Positions 23,823 through 32,098 of a DNA stretch of 32,231 nucleotides are shown in pieces (position 1 is the stretch's first letter; every line of letters begins with the position of its first letter). The DNA comes from Oscillospiraceae bacterium. Its GTDB lineage: Bacteria; Bacillota; Clostridia; Oscillospirales; Oscillospiraceae. The position numbers were made by a program, and so were the translations under genes. Below the pieces are notes generated by a model. The model worked only from the letters and a program-made list of their open reading frames with translations, had not been told where the DNA came from and ran no database searches. Location: NCBI GenBank assembly GCA_902779945.1, contig CACZDN010000024.1:1-32231 (forward strand). Direction: 5' to 3'.

Positions 23823-23851
23823 TTGACCTCTCAATTCGGCTGTGGTATAGT
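23823..23851 (+). promoter_or_regulatory. Promoter of rpmG-secE-nusG
   Basis: TTGACC (23823-23828), 17-bp spacer, TATAGT (23846-23851), giving a leader of about 130 nt before rpmG. Confidence 0.75.
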
Positions 23852-23984
23852 ACTACTTACCTGTCGGACGAGAGGTTTTCTTTTTGCGCGCCTTTTTCAG
23901 GACGCAGAGGGAGACACGAACGCCCCATACAGGGAGGCAATGCCCGTCCTGAGACGGGTAAATAAAATAGGAGGTGCCGAAAGA

Positions 23985-24146
23985 ATGGCTGCAGGCGCAA
24001 GAGTAAAAATTACACTCAGATGCGAAGAATGCAAGCAGAGGAACTACAACACGGTCAAGAACAAGAAAAATACTTCCGACCGTTTGGAGCGCAGCAAGTA
24101 TTGCCCCTTCTGCAGAAAGCACACCAAGCATGTCGAGACCAAGTAA
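23985..24146 (+). CDS. rpmG: 50S ribosomal protein L33
   Basis: A 53-residue L33 of the zinc-binding type: CEEC near residues 13-16 and CPFC at about 40-43 supply four Cys ligands. The family pattern [16 protein letters not shown] is clear. L33 sits near the E site of the large subunit. The ATG at 23985 has AGGAGG upstream; a longer in-frame extension lacks one. It opens the rpmG-secE-nusG operon, 20 bp before secE. Cys-containing and Cys-free L33 paralogues can exchange under zinc limitation in some Firmicutes. Confidence 0.97.
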
Positions 24147-24166
24147 GGACGGAAAGGAACGCAACA

Positions 24167-24436
24167 ATGGCTGAAGAAAAGAAAACCAACACCGCTCCCG
24201 CAAAGGCCGTTACCGCCGTCAAGAAGGATGAGACCGAGCAGGGCTTCTTCCAGAAGGTCGGCAAATGGTTCCGCGAGATGAAGAGCGAGCTGAAGAAGGT
24301 CATCTGGCCCACGCCGAAGACCCTTCGCAACAACACCCTCATCTCCCTCGGCATGATGGTCATTTCCTCGATCGTGATCTGGGGTTTTGATGAATTCGCT
24401 CAGATGGTGGTCAGACTCATCTTCCGTTTGGGTTGA
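24167..24436 (+). CDS. secE: Preprotein translocase subunit SecE
   Basis: An 89-residue single-span SecE. A charged N-terminal extension (about 1-28) precedes the amphipathic helix (WFREMKSELKKVIWPTPK, carrying the conserved K-x-V-x-W-P) and the membrane helix (about 55-80). SecE clamps SecY in the export channel. AAAGGA lies upstream of the ATG. It lies between rpmG and nusG as in most bacteria; its stop is 5 bp before the nusG ATG. Confidence 0.96.
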   Translation: MAEEKKTNTAPAKAVTAVKKDETEQGFFQKVGKWFREMKSELKKVIWPTPKTLRNNTLISLGMMVISSIVIWGFDEFAQMVVRLIFRLG

Positions 24437-24441
24437 GCGTG

Positions 24442-24966
24442 ATGGCCGAAGAAGCGAAATGGTATGTTGTTCATACCTATTCCGGGTATGAGAACGCTGT
24501 CGCCGCCGCAGTGATGAAGGCGGCGGAAAACCGCAGGATGACGGACCTGATCAAAGAGGTCAGCATCCCCATGGAGACCGTGACCGAGATCACGGACCAG
24601 GGGGAGAAAACCGTGGAGCGCAAGGTCTTCCCCGGCTACGTGCTGGTGAAGATGATCCTCACGGACGACAGCTGGCATCTGGTCCACAATGTCCGCGGCG
24701 CTACGGGCTTCGTCGGGTCCGACGGGAAGGCCGTCCCCCTCACGGAGCAGGAGATCTACGATCTGGGCGTCGAGCGCAAAGAGATCGTCGTCGGCTACGG
24801 CGTCGGCGATGAGGTCAAGGTCACTGACGGACCGCTTGCCGGCTTCCTCGGCATCGTGGAGGAGCTGGAGCCCGAGAAGGATCGGGTCCGCGTCGTGATC
24901 TCCATGTTCGGCCGCGAGACTCCGGTTGATCTGGAGCTCGATCAGGTCGAAGTCACCAAGGAATAA
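24442..24966 (+). CDS. nusG: Transcription termination/antitermination factor NusG
   Basis: A 174-residue NusG: the NGN domain begins WYVVHTYSGYENAV, with KVFPGYVLVKM and HLVHNVRGATGFVG, and the C-terminal KOW domain is VKVTDGPLAGFLGIVEEL. NusG binds RNA polymerase over the cleft and links it to Rho or the ribosome. The ATG at 24442 is preferred; a GTG one codon earlier and a TTG overlapping the secE stop are alternatives. There is no strong ribosome binding site, so translation is probably coupled to secE. Confidence 0.97.
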   Translation: MAEEAKWYVVHTYSGYENAVAAAVMKAAENRRMTDLIKEVSIPMETVTEITDQGEKTVERKVFPGYVLVKMILTDDSWHLVHNVRGATGFVGSDGKAVPLTEQEIYDLGVERKEIVVGYGVGDEVKVTDGPLAGFLGIVEELEPEKDRVRVVISMFGRETPVDLELDQVEVTKE

Positions 24967-25287
24967 CAATTCACGCAGATATTCGATAGGCCGCACAAAA
25001 TCAAATCCGTTTTTGACGGGGCTTTGCCTCGGCAAAAAACTCCCTGAGGCGAGCTGTGCGGGCTCTCGCGCCGTCGTCAAACGAAACTCACTCCATTCCT
25101 TCCGTTTTCCTCTCAACTTCAAAGCAGGGGCTTTGAAGTTGGTAAGGAAGAAGGAGGGAGCAGAACGTAGTTTTTGTCACGCTTGACAGAAACGGAGTGG
25201 CGCGAGCTTCTTCTGACGCGAGCGCGAGTCTCTCGATTCAAAACCGTGTTTTGAATCGTATACTAATAAGAAAGAGGTGCTGTAAAA
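24967..25287. repeat. Hairpin-rich 320-bp insert between nusG and rplK
   Basis: This stretch holds no gene. It contains two perfect 11-bp hairpins: CAACTTCAAAG (25114-25124) with 25131-25141, and CGATTCAAAAC (25234-25244) with 25248-25258. Further pairs are CCGCACA (24991-24997) with TGTGCGG (25055-25061), and GCCTC with GAGGC. The GGAGTG and GCGCGAG motifs recur in both orientations. It looks like an inserted palindromic repeat element, though an rplK leader structure cannot be excluded. Confidence 0.55.
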
Positions 25288-25713
25288 GTGGCACAGAAAG
25301 TAGTTGGATACGTAAGATTCCAGGTTCCCGCCGGCAAGGCGACTCCGGCGCCCCCCGTCGGCCCCGCACTGGGCCAGTACGGCGTCAACATCGGTCAGTT
25401 CACCAAGGACTTCAACGAGCGCACCAAGGGCGACATGGGCATGATGATCCCCGTCGTCATCACCGTGTACTCCGACCGCAGCTTCACCTTCGTCACCAAG
25501 ACCCCTCCTGCCGCCCTCCTCATCAAGAAGGCCTGCGGCATTGAGACCGCCTCCGGCGTGCCCCAGAGAGACAAGGTCGCGACCATCAGCAAGGAAGACG
25601 TCCGCAGGATCGCCGAGCAGAAGATGCCCGACCTCAACTGCACGGACATCGACTCCGCCATCAGCATGATCGCCGGTACCTGCCGCTCCATGGGCGTCGT
25701 CGTCGGGGACTGA
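25288..25713 (+). CDS. rplK: 50S ribosomal protein L11
   Basis: A 141-residue L11 from a GTG start, with AGAGGTG upstream. Family features are the N-terminal KLQVPAG-like segment ([25 protein letters not shown]) and the C-terminal rRNA-binding domain (about 75-141). L11 forms the stalk base with the GTPase-associated rRNA. It is 58 bp upstream of rplA. Confidence 0.97.
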
Positions 25714-25771
25714 TCCCCAACGTGGGAGGATATTAAATCCGAATCAACCACATTTTTAGGAGGAAAACAAA

Positions 25772-26461
25772 TTGTTTAGAGGTAAAAATTATAAAGAGAG
25801 CGCAAAGCTCATTGATAAGCAGAATCTTTACGACCCCATGGACGCGCTGAACCTGGTCTGCCAGGCCAGCAAGGCCAAGTTCGACGAGACCGTCGAGCTG
25901 CACCTCAAGCTCGGCGTTGACGGCCGTCACGCCGACCAGCAGGTCCGCGGCGCCATCGTCCTGCCCAACGGCACCGGCAAGACCGTGCGCGTGCTGGTCT
26001 TCTGCCCGCCCGAGCAGGTGGACGAGGCCCTCGCAGCCGGCGCCGATTTCGCCGGCGGCATGGAGTACGTCGAGAAGATCCAGAAGGAAAACTGGTTCGA
26101 GTTTGACACCGTGATCGCCAACCCCAAGATGATGGGCACCGTCGGCCGTCTCGGTAAGATCCTCGGCCCCAAGGGCCTGATGCCGTCCCCGAAGGCCGGC
26201 ACGGTCACCCCGAACGTGGCCCAGGCCGTCAAGGAGGCCAAAGCCGGTAAGGTCGAGTACCGTCTGGACAAGACCAACATCATCCACTGCCCCATCGGCA
26301 AGGTCAGCTTCGGCGCCGAGAAGCTGTACGAGAACTACGTTGCGCTGGTCGCGGCCGTCATCAAGGCCAAGCCCGCCGCCGCGAAGGGCCAGTACATCCG
26401 CTCCTGCGTCACCGCCTCCACCATGGGCCCCGGCGTCAAGATCAACGCCCAGTTATTTTGA
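25772..26461 (+). CDS. rplA: 50S ribosomal protein L1
   Basis: A 229-residue L1 from a TTG start with AGGAGG 8 nt upstream; no ATG fits. The family signature region ([34 protein letters not shown]) is intact. L1 forms the mobile stalk at the E site and in many bacteria represses its own operon by binding the rplK leader. Unusually, rplJ and rplL do not follow; the next gene is an ABC binding protein. Confidence 0.97.
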
Positions 26462-26568
26462 CCGTCACGCTGCCATGCTCCTGCGGCACATGTTTCACAA
26501 AGAAAACAGAAGGGCCCTGCGCTTTCCTGTCGCTTTTGACAAAATGCGCAGGGGGGAGGAAAACGGCA

Positions 26569-26597
26569 TTGACTTTAGCACCAAAAAGTGTTAAAGT
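26569..26597 (+). promoter_or_regulatory. Promoter of the Trp/Tyr-family ABC operon
   Basis: TTGACT (26569-26574), 17-bp spacer, TAAAGT (26592-26597). The transcript should start near 26604, just before the ribosome binding site of a short leader ORF. The 8-bp palindrome CCCTGCGC/GCGCAGGG (26515-26553) lies upstream. Confidence 0.75.
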
Positions 26598-26626
26598 CTG
26601 ATCATCAATCAGGAGGAGCCGCTGTC

Positions 26627-26707
26627 ATGTTCGGAATGCGCCGCGCAATTGCATACGGTTTTGACTATTACCTGTTTAGCAGACGTAATAGCGGTTTGTG
26701 CCGTTGA
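26627..26707 (+). CDS. Putative 26-aa leader peptide, Tyr/Phe-rich
   Basis: A short ORF with AGGAGG (26611-26616) 10 nt before its ATG encodes MFGMRRAIAYGFDYYLFSRR plus six more residues. Six of 26 codons are Tyr or Phe, five of them clustered (Y10, F12, Y14, Y15, F17). The first hairpin of the leader (CTATTAC 26665-26671 with GTAATAG 26685-26691) overlaps the end of this cluster. A second hairpin (CAGGA...TCCCTG, 26717-26741) and a terminator follow before the ABC genes. In known attenuators, ribosome stalling at such codons when the amino acid is scarce shifts pairing and prevents termination. Confidence 0.6.
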   Translation: MFGMRRAIAYGFDYYLFSRRNSGLCR

Positions 26708-26752
26708 GCGCCCGGACAGGATTCGTGTTCCACGGTCCCTGATCCGACAACG

Positions 26753-26784
26753 CGCCGCACAGACTGCCGTCTGGGCGGCGTTTT
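26753..26784 (+). terminator. Attenuator-type terminator before the ABC operon
   Basis: CGCCGC (26753-26758) pairs with GCGGCG (26775-26780), continued inside by CAGAC / GTCTG around TGCC, followed by TTTTC. It lies about 60 bp before the binding-protein start codon and inside its transcript. Confidence 0.75.
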
Positions 26785-26842
26785 CAATTTGGGACGTCCT
26801 GTTGAAAAGGCAAGAACAAAATACGATAAAGGAGAAACCACC

Positions 26843-27796
26843 ATGAAAAAAATCATCACGCTCATCCTTGCGCTGTCCCTCATGTTCAGCCTGGCCCTCT
26901 GCGGCACCGCCTTCGCCGACGACAGCTACACCGTCGGCATCTGCCAGCTCGTACAGCACCCCGCGCTCGACGCCGCGACCCAGGGCTTTAAGGACGCCCT
27001 GACCAAGGCCCTCGGCGACAAGGTCAGCTTCATCGAGCAGAACGCCTCCGGCGACTCCGCCAACTGCGCCATCATCTGCAACCAGTTCGTGTCCGATGAC
27101 GTGAACCTGATCCTGGCCAACGCCACCCCGGCCCTGCTGGCCGCCCAGGCTGCGACCAACAAGATCCCCGTCCTCGGCACCTCCGTCACCGATTACGCCT
27201 CCGCGCTTGACATCGACGGCTGGAAGGGCTACACCGAGTCCAACATCTCCGGCACCTCCGACGGCGTCCCCGCGGCTGAGCTGGCGGCCGTCGTCCAGGA
27301 GCTCTTCCCCGACGCCAGGAACGTCGGCCTGCTCTACTGCTCCGGCGAGCCCAACTCCAAGTTCCAGGCCGAGGAGATCCGTCCCGTCCTTGAGGGCATG
27401 GGCTACAAGGTCTCCGACTATACCTTTGCCGACTCCAACGACGTGGCCGCCGTCACCAACAACGCCTGCGACGACAACGACGTGCTCTACATCCCGACCG
27501 ACAATACCGCCGCCTCCAACGCCGAGCTCATCAACAACGTGGCCCTCGAGAAGAAGATCCCCATCGTCGCCGGTGAGGAAGGCCTCTGCTCCGGCTGCGG
27601 CGTGGCGACCCTGTCCATCTCCTACTACGATCTCGGCACCGTGACCGGCGAGATGGCCGCGAAGATCCTGGCCGAGGGCGCGGACGTCTCCACCATGGAG
27701 ATCCAGTACGCCCCCTTCGCCAAAAAGTTCAACAAGACCAACTGCGACATTCTCGGCATCACCGTCCCCGAGGCCTACGAGGCTATCGCGGAGTAA
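26843..27796 (+). CDS. ABC transporter substrate-binding protein, Trp/Tyr (TrpX/COG2984-like) family
   Basis: A 317-residue secreted binding protein. The signal peptide is MKKIITLILALSLMFSLALCGTAFA; the cysteine context is poor for a lipobox. The mature start YTVGICQLVQHPALDAATQGF is the family hallmark, followed by NASGDSANCAIICNQFV, NATPALLAAQAAT and VLGTSVTDY. Studied members of this group bind tryptophan or tyrosine (TrpX of streptococci) or related ligands. AAAGGAG lies 8 nt before the ATG. It is followed by its permease and ATPase. The Tyr/Phe-rich leader upstream fits an aromatic amino acid ligand. Confidence 0.92.
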   Translation: MKKIITLILALSLMFSLALCGTAFADDSYTVGICQLVQHPALDAATQGFKDALTKALGDKVSFIEQNASGDSANCAIICNQFVSDDVNLILANATPALLAAQAATNKIPVLGTSVTDYASALDIDGWKGYTESNISGTSDGVPAAELAAVVQELFPDARNVGLLYCSGEPNSKFQAEEIRPVLEGMGYKVSDYTFADSNDVAAVTNNACDDNDVLYIPTDNTAASNAELINNVALEKKIPIVAGEEGLCSGCGVATLSISYYDLGTVTGEMAAKILAEGADVSTMEIQYAPFAKKFNKTNCDILGITVPEAYEAIAE

Positions 27797-27816
27797 GAGA
27801 GTGGAGTGTTAAGCTT

Positions 27817-27890
27817 GGAGTGTGGAGTTATGGTGTCCGCTGCGCGGGTGGATTGAATCGCAGCGGAGCGGCCCCTTAACTCCACACTCC
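27817..27890. repeat. Palindromic repeat between binding-protein and permease genes
   Basis: GGAGTGTGGAGTTA (27817-27830) pairs with TAACTCCACACTCC (27877-27890), and inside it TCCGCTGCG (27836-27844) pairs with CGCAGCGGA (27859-27867). Further GGAGTGT-type units lie on both sides (27799-27809, 27889-27909). It fills most of the 131-bp gap inside an operon. Confidence 0.7.
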
Positions 27891-27927
27891 ACACTCCTGA
27901 CTCCACACTTTATTTGAGGTGTAATCT

Positions 27928-29915: not shown

Positions 29916-31079
29916 ATGGATGCCTTTAATCAGTTTGTCTATATTGCCGGCGCGCTGACGACGGCGGTGTGCATTGTCCTGTGCCTGGTGCTCTTCTTCG
30001 CCTGCAGGAGCCGGGACGCAAAGGGGCGGCGCATCGAGCTGGACAGCAAAACGGACGAGCAGCCCTGGCCCCTCGGGCTCTGGATCGCGGGCGTGTTCGT
30101 GGCGGGGACGGGCGTTGCGCTCATGTACGCGCCGGCGGACCTCGTGGGCTACATCGGCGAGGGGCTGAACCCCATCGAGTCCATCACGATGGTCGCGCTC
30201 CTCAACGGCGCCCCGGTCTGGGCGCTCTACTCCGTCATGGGCCTCTGGTACATGAAGCACATGGACTCCAAAATCGGGAAGCTGGCCGCCATGCTGTCCA
30301 CGGTGCTGGGCATGTCGATCTCGCTCTGGACCGGCATGAACACCGTCGCGCGCTTCATCGGCCTGAGTTTCCCCGGCCTCAAGTTCATGCTCGCGGCCAT
30401 TACGGTGACGGTGGCGATGATCTCCGCGCGCAACAACCTGCTCAAGGGCATGTCGAAGCTCGCCTTCCTCGTGTTCTTTGTCGCCTTCCTGGCGGTGCTG
30501 TCCACGCCGCTGACCGATTTTGAGTTCAACCCCATCACGGGCCGCATTACAGGCAGCTTCTGGCGCGAATACTTCTGCGGCGCGACCGCTGCGAGCTGGA
30601 TCTTCTGGTTCCTCTCCTGGACGCCGACGGTCTCGCGCTGGCTGGCGCATATCTCCAAGGGCCGCACCATGAAGGAATACATCGCGGGCACCATGCTCCT
30701 GCCGACCGTGCTGGCCGCGGTGTGGATGGCGGTGTCGTGGATGTACCAGGACGTGATCATGAGCTTCAACCTGGCCCAGAACATCGCGTCCTTCATCCCC
30801 TGCGTGATCTTCATCATCTCCGGCATCCTCTTCATGACCGGCACGCTGGACTCCGACTGCAAGGTCTTTACAGAGGACCTGGAGTTTCTCAGCGGCGGCA
30901 AAATCCAGCGCAGGGCCGCCATCCCCTACTACGGGCTCTTTGTGCTCTTCGTGTTCAGCCTTTTTATCTCCGGCATCATCCGCAAGCCCTTTGCCTTCAA
31001 CGAGTATTCCTCCCTGATCTTCATGCCTCTCATGGTCATGAGCATCGTCGAGTGCGTCAAGCTCGTGAAGGAGCGCTGA
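29916..31079 (+). CDS. Shortened BCCT-like membrane transporter
   Basis: A 387-residue protein with about ten hydrophobic helices. The segment WIFWFLSWTPTVSRWLAHIS then KGRTMKEYI closely follows the betaine/carnitine/choline transporter (BCCT) signature, in which aromatic residues of one helix line the substrate site and the ARISRGRT loop follows. The N-terminal LMYAPADLVGYIGEG recalls BCCT helix 3. BCCT proteins normally have about 500 residues and 12 helices, so this one lacks part of the family fold. The tryptophan box is reduced (FWFLSW for W-x-WW), so it may not carry betaine. AAAGGAGGG lies before the ATG and a strong terminator follows; it is a single-gene unit. Confidence 0.7.
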   Translation: MDAFNQFVYIAGALTTAVCIVLCLVLFFACRSRDAKGRRIELDSKTDEQPWPLGLWIAGVFVAGTGVALMYAPADLVGYIGEGLNPIESITMVALLNGAPVWALYSVMGLWYMKHMDSKIGKLAAMLSTVLGMSISLWTGMNTVARFIGLSFPGLKFMLAAITVTVAMISARNNLLKGMSKLAFLVFFVAFLAVLSTPLTDFEFNPITGRITGSFWREYFCGATAASWIFWFLSWTPTVSRWLAHISKGRTMKEYIAGTMLLPTVLAAVWMAVSWMYQDVIMSFNLAQNIASFIPCVIFIISGILFMTGTLDSDCKVFTEDLEFLSGGKIQRRAAIPYYGLFVLFVFSLFISGIIRKPFAFNEYSSLIFMPLMVMSIVECVKLVKER

Positions 31080-31156: not shown

Positions 31157-31891
31157 TCAGTGCCTGTGATCTGCTCCCTTCGCACCAACGCCGAAGTGGA
31201 GCTCCTTCATGCCCTCGACCTCGTCGCAGATGTCCTTGAGGGCGCAGACAGAGCAGTCCGTAGGCAGACCCTCAAAGATGTGGGTCAGAGTGCCGGTCAC
31301 GTCGGCGGACTTCTTCGCCATGGCCCGGAGGGCAGCGTAGTCCGCTGCGGGATCGGTGAGGAAGATCACGGTGGCGCTGATGACGTTGGGGTCCTGCTTG
31401 TAGGCCCGGATGTAGTTCATGCCGAGGGCCCGGAAGTTGATGCCGCGGCGGACGGCCTCGCGGCTGACGCGGACCTGTTCGCGGTAGCTCTCGGGTGAGA
31501 TGCGCACCATGTAGCCCTGGGGGTAGACGTGATACTTGGCAAACTCGATGTCCCGGAGCGTGCGGTAGACCGCCTCGTCCTCGTCCTCCAGCACGCCGAT
31601 ACGCAGCAGCACGAGGCGGGCAAAGTCGCAGTCGCCCTTGATCTCCCGCAGGTCCCTGCCGCAGAGGACCACCTGATCCCTGCCGCCGAGAGCTTCGTTC
31701 GACGTGAAGAGCACGAAGTTTGCCGAGCCCTTGCCGGACGCGCCGAGCTCGAAGGCCGCGTCCTTCTGCAAAACCAGCTCGCTCGAGCTGTTGCAGGGCC
31801 AGACGGCCGCCGGGTCGTAGTCCCAGACCTTTGCGGGGAGCCTGTCCACAAGCTCTCGGGTCTCTTTGATCAGGGAATTGTAGAGCTCCAT
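31157..31891 (-). CDS. Cys-cluster protein, possibly acetyl-CoA synthase/CdhC-related
   Basis: A 244-residue soluble protein. Distinct features are the segment YPQGYMVRISPESYREQVRVS, an alternating hydrophobic stretch (NVISATVIFLTDPAADY), and a C-terminal cluster DCSVCALKDICDEVEGMKELHFG with C-x2-C-x5-C that could ligate an iron-sulfur cluster. I recall this ending in proteins annotated as CO dehydrogenase/acetyl-CoA synthase beta-subunit-like (CdhC). The full catalytic domain of acetyl-CoA synthase is not present at this length, so a true synthase is unlikely. Downstream partner upstream in the operon is a 55-aa membrane protein 3 bp away and a BadF-type ATPase, whose relatives activate radical dehydratases or corrinoid proteins. 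Confidence 0.5.
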   Translation of the reverse strand: MELYNSLIKETRELVDRLPAKVWDYDPAAVWPCNSSSELVLQKDAAFELGASGKGSANFVLFTSNEALGGRDQVVLCGRDLREIKGDCDFARLVLLRIGVLEDEDEAVYRTLRDIEFAKYHVYPQGYMVRISPESYREQVRVSREAVRRGINFRALGMNYIRAYKQDPNVISATVIFLTDPAADYAALRAMAKKSADVTGTLTHIFEGLPTDCSVCALKDICDEVEGMKELHFGVGAKGADHRH

Positions 31892-31894
31892 AGA

Positions 31895-32062
31895 CTAGAA
31901 TACCTGATTGACCTGCTTCCGGTCAAAGATGAGGTTGACCTGTTTGTACGCCCAGCCGAGCAGCTTCTGATCGAGGTTCCAGAAATAGACCACGAACAGC
32001 ACGCCGACGACCGCGACGAGGATGAGCACGATCTTTTTGATCAAGTCACAGATTTTGCACAT
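31895..32062 (-). CDS. 55-aa single-span membrane protein
   Basis: Not in any family I recognise. The frame MCKICDLIKKIVLILVAVVG continues through one membrane helix (about residues 8-28) to a polar C-terminus (WAYKQVNLIFDRKQVNQVF). The N-terminal CKIC pair could bind a metal or be modified. AAGGAG lies 12 nt before the ATG, which is rather far. The gene lies 36 bp after the activator ATPase and 3 bp before the Cys-cluster protein, so it is part of that operon. It is too short for most gene callers to accept with confidence. Confidence 0.6.
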   Translation of the reverse strand: MCKICDLIKKIVLILVAVVGVLFVVYFWNLDQKLLGWAYKQVNLIFDRKQVNQVF

Positions 32063-32098
32063 ATTTTCAATATGCTCCTTTCCTGATTGACGCGGGGT

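Follow-up and report, generated by a model that had tools for sequence, protein, structure and literature searches.

A putative tyrosine/phenylalanine leader-peptide attenuator upstream of a predicted tyrosine ABC importer in Oscillospiraceae, with related leaders before DAHP synthase genes in Clostridia

The window, i.e. the whole stretch of 32,231 nucleotides that was analysed, belongs to a draft genome of an Oscillospiraceae bacterium (2.87 Mb, 39 contigs, 85.8% complete). The leader features and importer genes described here are located on its forward (+) strand. The region 26569-26842 lies downstream (3') of rpmG, secE, nusG, rplK and rplA and upstream of the genes of an ABC importer, which were assigned by domain matches: a substrate-binding protein (PF04392, 26843..27796), predicted to be of the tyrosine type, a permease (PF02653, 27928..28872) and an ATPase (PF00005, 28877..29671). 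The genes usually following rplA are rplJ-rplL, which were absent among the ORFs scanned downstream of this stretch (23823-26842, ribosomal cluster and leader), with 31529-32086 outside the scan. Between the genes for the binding protein and the permease we noticed an imperfect palindrome (27798-27915) with 29 matches in the 2.87 Mb genome, counting both strands and the palindrome itself; judging from these matches it is a REP- or MITE-like element inside the importer operon. Further downstream an ORF of 387 aa (29916-31079) matched BCCT transporters weakly and over part of its length.

A promoter scan of a 601-base stretch returned two promoter-like sites, one per strand, while shuffled sequences gave a mean of 0.1. 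One of them, TTGACT-17-TAAAGT at 26569..26597, precedes the leader, and of 37 family genomes with a match (300 searched, window genome included), 32 were matched in the promoter part of the query. A Shine-Dalgarno sequence, read directly from the letters (AGGAGGAG, 26611..26618), is followed by a leader-peptide ORF of 26 codons (MFGMRRAIAYGFDYYLFSRRNSGLCR, 26627..26707, ATG at 26627 and TGA ending at 26707), found by ORF reading and recovered in related leaders. Five of the eight codons from Y10 to F17 are aromatic (Y10, F12, Y14, Y15 and F17). According to pairing in the alignment of related leaders, the codons of Tyr14 and Tyr15 (region 1, CTATTAC, 26665..26671) form the 5' arm of a pause hairpin, P1, with GTAATAG at 26685..26691 as 3' arm. 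Region 2 (GCGGUUUGUGC, 26691..26701), located within the end of the ORF, is the 5' strand of a predicted anti-terminator, as indicated by the alignment and a strand-swap test. Its partner by alignment pairing, region 3 (GCACAGACUGC, 26757..26767), provides the 3' strand and is at the same time the 5' arm and loop of an intrinsic terminator. The latter (26752..26784 including the U run) was detected by terminator scans and in related leaders; its stem at 26752-26781 has a folding energy of -21.0 kcal/mol, is followed by TTTC and ends about 60 bases upstream of the ATG of the binding-protein gene at 26843. An earlier note, made by reading this DNA, had described a consensus-like promoter, a well-placed Shine-Dalgarno sequence, a 26-codon ORF with five clustered Tyr/Phe codons, a hairpin over this cluster and a terminator ahead of the binding-protein gene, and all of these elements were confirmed.

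To see how often such an ORF accompanies the importer, we collected binding-protein homologues; 127 of the 250 family genomes searched have them, at 137 places in total. Upstream DNA was taken for 106 of the 137 places; the 29 least similar ones, one near a contig end and one second copy were left out. A leader was counted if an ORF of 12-40 aa with a Shine-Dalgarno sequence contained at least 5 Tyr/Phe codons in 10. This applied to 20 of the 106 places, the window included, and the remaining 86 were without such a leader. Among the same 106 places the reverse strand gave 3 hits and each of five dinucleotide-shuffled sets gave 0. At least two of the 20 (L169, L045) look accidental, and at least three likely leaders (L128, L056, L057) were missed by this definition. 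The aromatic codons picked out in the earlier note thus recur in the leaders of relatives. A number of importer homologues (L050, L056, L057, L163, L180, L181, L190, L194, L196, L197, L204) are preceded by Phe/Tyr leaders of a second type, in which the peptides have an R-x-AG-like motif in common (RFAG, RYAG, RYYFAG).

For the analysis of the RNA switch, 19 importer leaders were aligned from the promoter dyad described below through the terminator. In the 11-pair anti-terminator (26691-26701 / 26757-26767), 97.6% of 208 cells were paired compared to 90.7% in shuffles, none of 500 of which reached this value, and 12 cells were changed on both sides compared to a shuffle mean of 2.7 (again 0/500 as high). 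When the partner strand was shifted by 1 to 3 columns, the pairing fell to 26-53%. The aligned sequences are related and hence not independent, and stricter counts less sensitive to relatedness were unexceptional: 3 pairs had changed on both sides, a number reached in 76/500 shuffles, and there were 12 further pair types (reached in 138/500). An example of the changes is found in L227, where GCGGUUUGUGC:GCACAGACUGC of the window is replaced by GAAGUUUGUGC:GCACGGACUUC. We then let regions 2 and 3 of each leader pair with their own partner or with partners swapped between leaders. Across 58 leaders the own pairing reached -12.95 kcal/mol versus -8.97 kcal/mol after swapping (0/5000 permutations), and the difference held for 43 distant leaders (-11.6 versus -8.3 kcal/mol; 0/5000) as well as for 15 importer leaders (-16.7 versus -14.1 kcal/mol; 0/5000). 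In six of the 58 (L277, L279, L299, L310, L312, L315), most of the swapped partners gave better pairing than the leader's own. A simple duplex test gave no clear signal, as it could not separate the anti-terminator pairing from base composition. A terminator followed every leader in a set of 54 from which L104 was left out (in one case the terminator was placed by hand) and was present in 18 of the 19 aligned rows, the row of L148 ending before its position. Because region 3 is also the 5' arm of the terminator, terminator and anti-terminator are mutually exclusive; such an alternative fold, whose two strands change together, is what the attenuator proposed in the earlier note calls for.

The spacing of these elements is narrow. 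From the last aromatic codon to region 2 we counted 11-20 bases in 19 of 19 importer leaders, and the stop codon is located from 10 bases upstream to 32 bases downstream of the point where region 2 starts. The largest distances (26-32 bases beyond the start) are found in L148, L237 and L248, which makes the position of a finishing ribosome less clear in these three. With this arrangement a ribosome waiting on the aromatic run would leave region 2 free, while one finishing the ORF would generally cover it. P1 is less clear-cut: 88.7% of 133 cells were paired compared to 86.4% in shuffles (8/500 as high), with several rows apparently shifted in the alignment. In a consensus built from 7 leaders, its outer part extends into region 2. 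Since the core of P1 overlaps region 2 by one base, exclusion of the anti-terminator by P1 rests on these outer pairs, which are incomplete in several rows.

Taken as a ribosome-controlled switch, the leader would work as follows. When charged tRNA is ample, the ribosome would reach the stop codon and mask region 2 (26691-26701); region 3 (26757-26767) would then be free to form the terminator and transcription would stop. If charged tRNA-Tyr or tRNA-Phe runs short, the ribosome would wait on the aromatic codons (26654-26677) and block the 5' arm of P1, so that region 2 could pair with region 3, no terminator would form and the importer genes would be transcribed. We modelled this by folding the transcript, cut before the 3' arm of the terminator, with the ribosome represented as a mask. 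In the window, sequestration of region 3 was 0.92 with the ribosome waiting and 0.22 with the ribosome at the stop codon; a ribosome-free transcript gave 0.71 and shuffled sequence 0.48 (0/30 as high as with the waiting ribosome). Mean values for waiting, stop and shuffled were 0.66, 0.30 and 0.49 in 20 importer leaders and 0.66, 0.37 and 0.55 in 34 leaders of DAHP synthase genes, which are described below. Waiting exceeded stop by more than 0.1 in 16/20 importer and 28/34 DAHP synthase leaders and the reverse was seen in 0/20 and 2/34, respectively; the same-genus leaders L037 and L128 showed no difference between the two states. Leaders from the wider order behaved more weakly: of 25, 14 showed waiting above stop and 6 the reverse. 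The excess of waiting over stop is partly trivial as less of the transcript is masked, while the shuffled control carries an identical mask. The value of 0.71 for the ribosome-free case implies that in this model an untranslated transcript may terminate poorly, unlike the textbook case.

Other explanations of the conserved ORF and terminator have to be weighed against this reading. The aromatic peptide, while in the exit tunnel, could itself respond to free tyrosine or phenylalanine and stall the ribosome, as TnaC does with tryptophan in nascent-peptide arrest. Short peptides with many bulky residues, a subgroup of which carries the R-x-AG-like motif, would fit this, but the 15 aligned importer leader peptides have a mean column identity of 28% and not one invariant column, and the conserved tail of the peptide follows the RNA pairing region. 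Arrest by abundance would moreover raise expression at amino acid plenty, which is odd for an importer, and we regard this explanation as improbable. The same low peptide conservation speaks against the ORF encoding a functional small protein in front of an ordinary partial terminator devoid of any sensing. Such a protein would account for the well-placed Shine-Dalgarno sequence and for the retention of the ORF in relatives, but neither for the narrow spacing between codons and region 2 nor for the joint changes in regions 2 and 3, and its probability appears lower still.

The least probable of the alternatives, in our judgement, is that a protein- or ligand-binding RNA (a T-box, a TRAP-type array of GAG/UAG triplets or a new riboswitch) controls the terminator and that the ORF is incidental. 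T-boxes are common in Firmicutes for genes of this kind, as stated in the account given in PMC2494555, and they even occur behind the same promoter dyad in three of the loci discussed below (L238-L240). However, when the window and 7 relatives were searched against Rfam 15, no family passed its gathering threshold, be it the T-box (RF00230) or a known riboswitch, and sub-threshold matches in the leader had E-values of 0.14 or worse; the aromatic codons also keep their position relative to region 2. A glycine riboswitch was noticed at 934-1017 of L060, a stretch around another importer homologue. Given the anti-terminator, the codon spacing, the recurring leaders and the lack of a T-box or riboswitch match in Rfam, we support the leader-peptide attenuator originally suggested for this locus and consider it very probable from sequence comparison that the leader works by ribosome-mediated transcription attenuation, responding to how far tRNA-Tyr and tRNA-Phe are charged and thereby controlling an ABC importer for tyrosine, possibly also phenylalanine.

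Leaders of the same kind are found before DAHP synthase genes. We inspected the best 44 copies, from a longer list, of one DAHP synthase paralogue in the same family (at least 72% identity). An aromatic leader, mostly Tyr-rich, was present in 35, none in 7, and 2 were not judgeable; the leader of L104 was read by eye from the overlapping locus L031, L120 had too little upstream DNA, and L124 is the poorest in Tyr of these leaders. A model of the DAHP synthase leaders (R1) found nothing convincing in the window genome (best E 7.46). To cover a wider range, a covariance model built from 17 importer leaders was run on whole genomes with a threshold of E 0.001, the E-values being rough. At the level of the order, 31 of 365 genomes were matched: 26 matches lie before DAHP synthase genes, 2 before the importer (one of them the window) and 3 look false (L296, L300, G347). 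At the level of the class, 20 of 366 genomes gave 21 matches, consisting of the window and 20 others, 16 of which precede DAHP synthase genes. One further match precedes prephenate dehydratase (L316) and one phenylacetate-CoA ligase (L321), two look false (L319, which is the G347 match again, and L320), and the match in L317 showed no complete leader and terminator. The model therefore finds members in a minority of genomes. The 25 order-level DAHP synthase leaders contain 121 Phe, 102 Tyr and 1 Trp among 623 codons. The Phe/Tyr leader of L321 suggests that the switch also serves functions other than biosynthesis and import. A ribosome-stalling attenuator for a Tyr/Phe-responsive transporter had been thought unusual for Firmicutes when the leader was first noted; this expectation was not supported, as the same architecture is found before DAHP synthase genes in other members of the order and the class.

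Which amino acid is sensed was assessed from codon usage. The 19 importer leaders contain 89 Tyr, 39 Phe and 1 Trp among 416 codons (TAT 49, TAC 40, TTT 29, TTC 10, TGG 1). The window leader has three Tyr and three Phe codons and taken alone cannot tell Tyr from Phe. The best solved relative of the binding protein is CD0873 of C. difficile (E 3.8e-42; PDB 6HNI), a distant relative from the same binding-protein family, which according to the structure description in PMC6816091 was crystallised with tyrosine. The same description names the residues that select the side chain: Glu-263 and Tyr-279 for tyrosine, Ala and Tyr for phenylalanine (VC_1101), and Ala and Gln for tryptophan (SP1069). At the two pocket positions compared, corresponding to 263 and 279 of CD0873, the window protein carries Glu and Tyr. 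Across 50 proteins, the window included, this pair is Glu/Tyr in 48 and Asp/Tyr in 2; it does not differ between proteins whose genes have a leader and those whose genes lack one, so the pocket type does not track the leader. The curated tryptophan-type family TrpX (NF041285) was not matched by the window binding protein, which scored 213.3 bits against a cut-off of 390. The Trp/Tyr-family importer proposed in the earlier note is thus better described as one of the tyrosine type. Leader and pocket separately point to tyrosine, which is the likely cargo.

The promoter of the leader contains a second putative control element. A dyad with the sequence ACTTTAGCAC-N6-GTGTTAAAGT (general form ACTTTAGCAC-N6-GTGYTAAAGT) at 26572..26597 overlaps both promoter hexamers. 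We scanned the genome contigs of 84,980 species for the exact degenerate pattern, using no information on leaders, and obtained 35 stretches. They stem from Oscillospiraceae, Ruminococcaceae, Clostridiales, Clostridia and individual genera, Pseudoflavonifractor among them, and several come from samples of animal gut. Downstream (3') of the dyad, 14 stretches carry the importer and 15 a DAHP synthase gene. Three others have an acyl-CoA ligase gene behind a T-box, and there is one each with a prephenate dehydrogenase-like gene, a sodium symporter gene and the end of the contig. Importer and DAHP synthase were called by BLAST against the window protein and against a DAHP synthase confirmed by NCBIfam, respectively; the acyl-CoA ligase of L238 was named by its resemblance to those of L239 and L240. 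All 14 importer genes found in this way have an aromatic leader. The 15 DAHP synthase genes have a leader in 10 cases, one interrupted by N in 1, and the dyad near the gene but no leader in 4. Among the genomes with a leader before DAHP synthase is that of Oscillospiraceae bacterium CE91-St43. A dyad near a DAHP synthase gene with no leader found was noted for L106, L114, L116, L117, L233, L244, L246 and L247. In L238, L239, L240 and also L029 the promoter dyad is followed by a T-box, with the acyl-CoA ligase gene next in L238-L240. GAATACC in the T-box may represent a tyrosine specifier.

As the dyad is common to aromatic-supply genes with a leader, without a leader or with a T-box, it looks like the operator of an aromatic regulon, and it probably represents a second control tier separate from the attenuator. 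Operator and attenuator seem to be separable in evolution. In the window genome two exact matches were found, the clean dyad being present only at the window site; a loose pattern with two mismatches was swamped by chance (59 forward matches compared to 114 in the control). A candidate for a regulator that would act at this operator is a TrpR-family protein (PF01371), present in 130 of 150 family genomes. It was not found in G075 (96% complete), a genome with dyad and leader. HisR, whose operator consensus is given as cacTTTA-N6-TAAAgtg in PMC9413887, was ruled out by spacing, as TTTA and TAAA are 14 bases apart here rather than separated by N6. In L005, L009, L011, L018, L023 and L024 the dyad adjoins a gene that resembles Rrf2-family regulators when read by eye and is apparently transcribed opposite to the DAHP synthase leader.

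The enterobacterial attenuators trpL, pheL and hisL combine a short ORF with regulatory codons, a hairpin over these codons and mutually exclusive anti-terminator and terminator. Compared by architecture, the window leader has the same set of elements, but differs in its mixed Tyr/Phe run, its occurrence in Clostridia and its association with a predicted tyrosine importer, and with DAHP synthase in relatives. The nearest aromatic case in print is the uORFC-13-1 motif as described in PMC8632094, with 24 examples located 5' of aroF. By that description its uORF carries phenylalanine codons and, as in our leaders, is followed by a terminator and a DAHP synthase gene, but the motif is reported from no source other than Acholeplasma and environmental sequences and concerns phenylalanine. 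Within the Firmicutes, leader-peptide attenuation of a similar type is in print for histidine, differing by histidine codons and his genes in the reports PMC2965389 and PMC9413887. The report PMC5794164 likewise describes a leucine-rich attenuator peptide in Staphylococcus aureus, which is alike as a Firmicutes leader and differs by leucine and branched-chain amino acid genes. Our literature search, which covered mostly titles and few subscription journals and is weak evidence of absence, returned no Tyr or Tyr/Phe leader in Clostridia. The mechanism would be classical; the RNA family is apparently not yet in Rfam and the reading of Tyr and Phe recurs in Clostridia. In a rough form the proposed family can be written as GCAUAY-(UUUUAC)n-AAGUAAAAG-YGAUUUGUGYUGC followed by the terminator, whose 5' arm is the alternative partner. 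It would be hard to see in gene tables because short ORFs are easily missed in annotation; a similar omission of short leader ORFs is pointed out in a passage of PMC2965389.

On balance we lean slightly towards a broader view, in which the leader belongs to a class-wide, so far unnamed attenuator family of Clostridia that reads the charging of tRNA-Tyr and tRNA-Phe together and serves as a main control of entry into the shikimate pathway. A tyrosine importer of one lineage would have taken over this module, which was joined there to a promoter dyad, resulting in a two-tier control similar to the trp operon of E. coli. For the importer, whose nearest curated family name refers to tryptophan transport, the analysis provides a testable ligand. 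It further suggests that a good number of Clostridia steer their supply of aromatic amino acids by a leader-peptide switch. If this is true, the decision between importing and making tyrosine in Clostridia would become directly testable.
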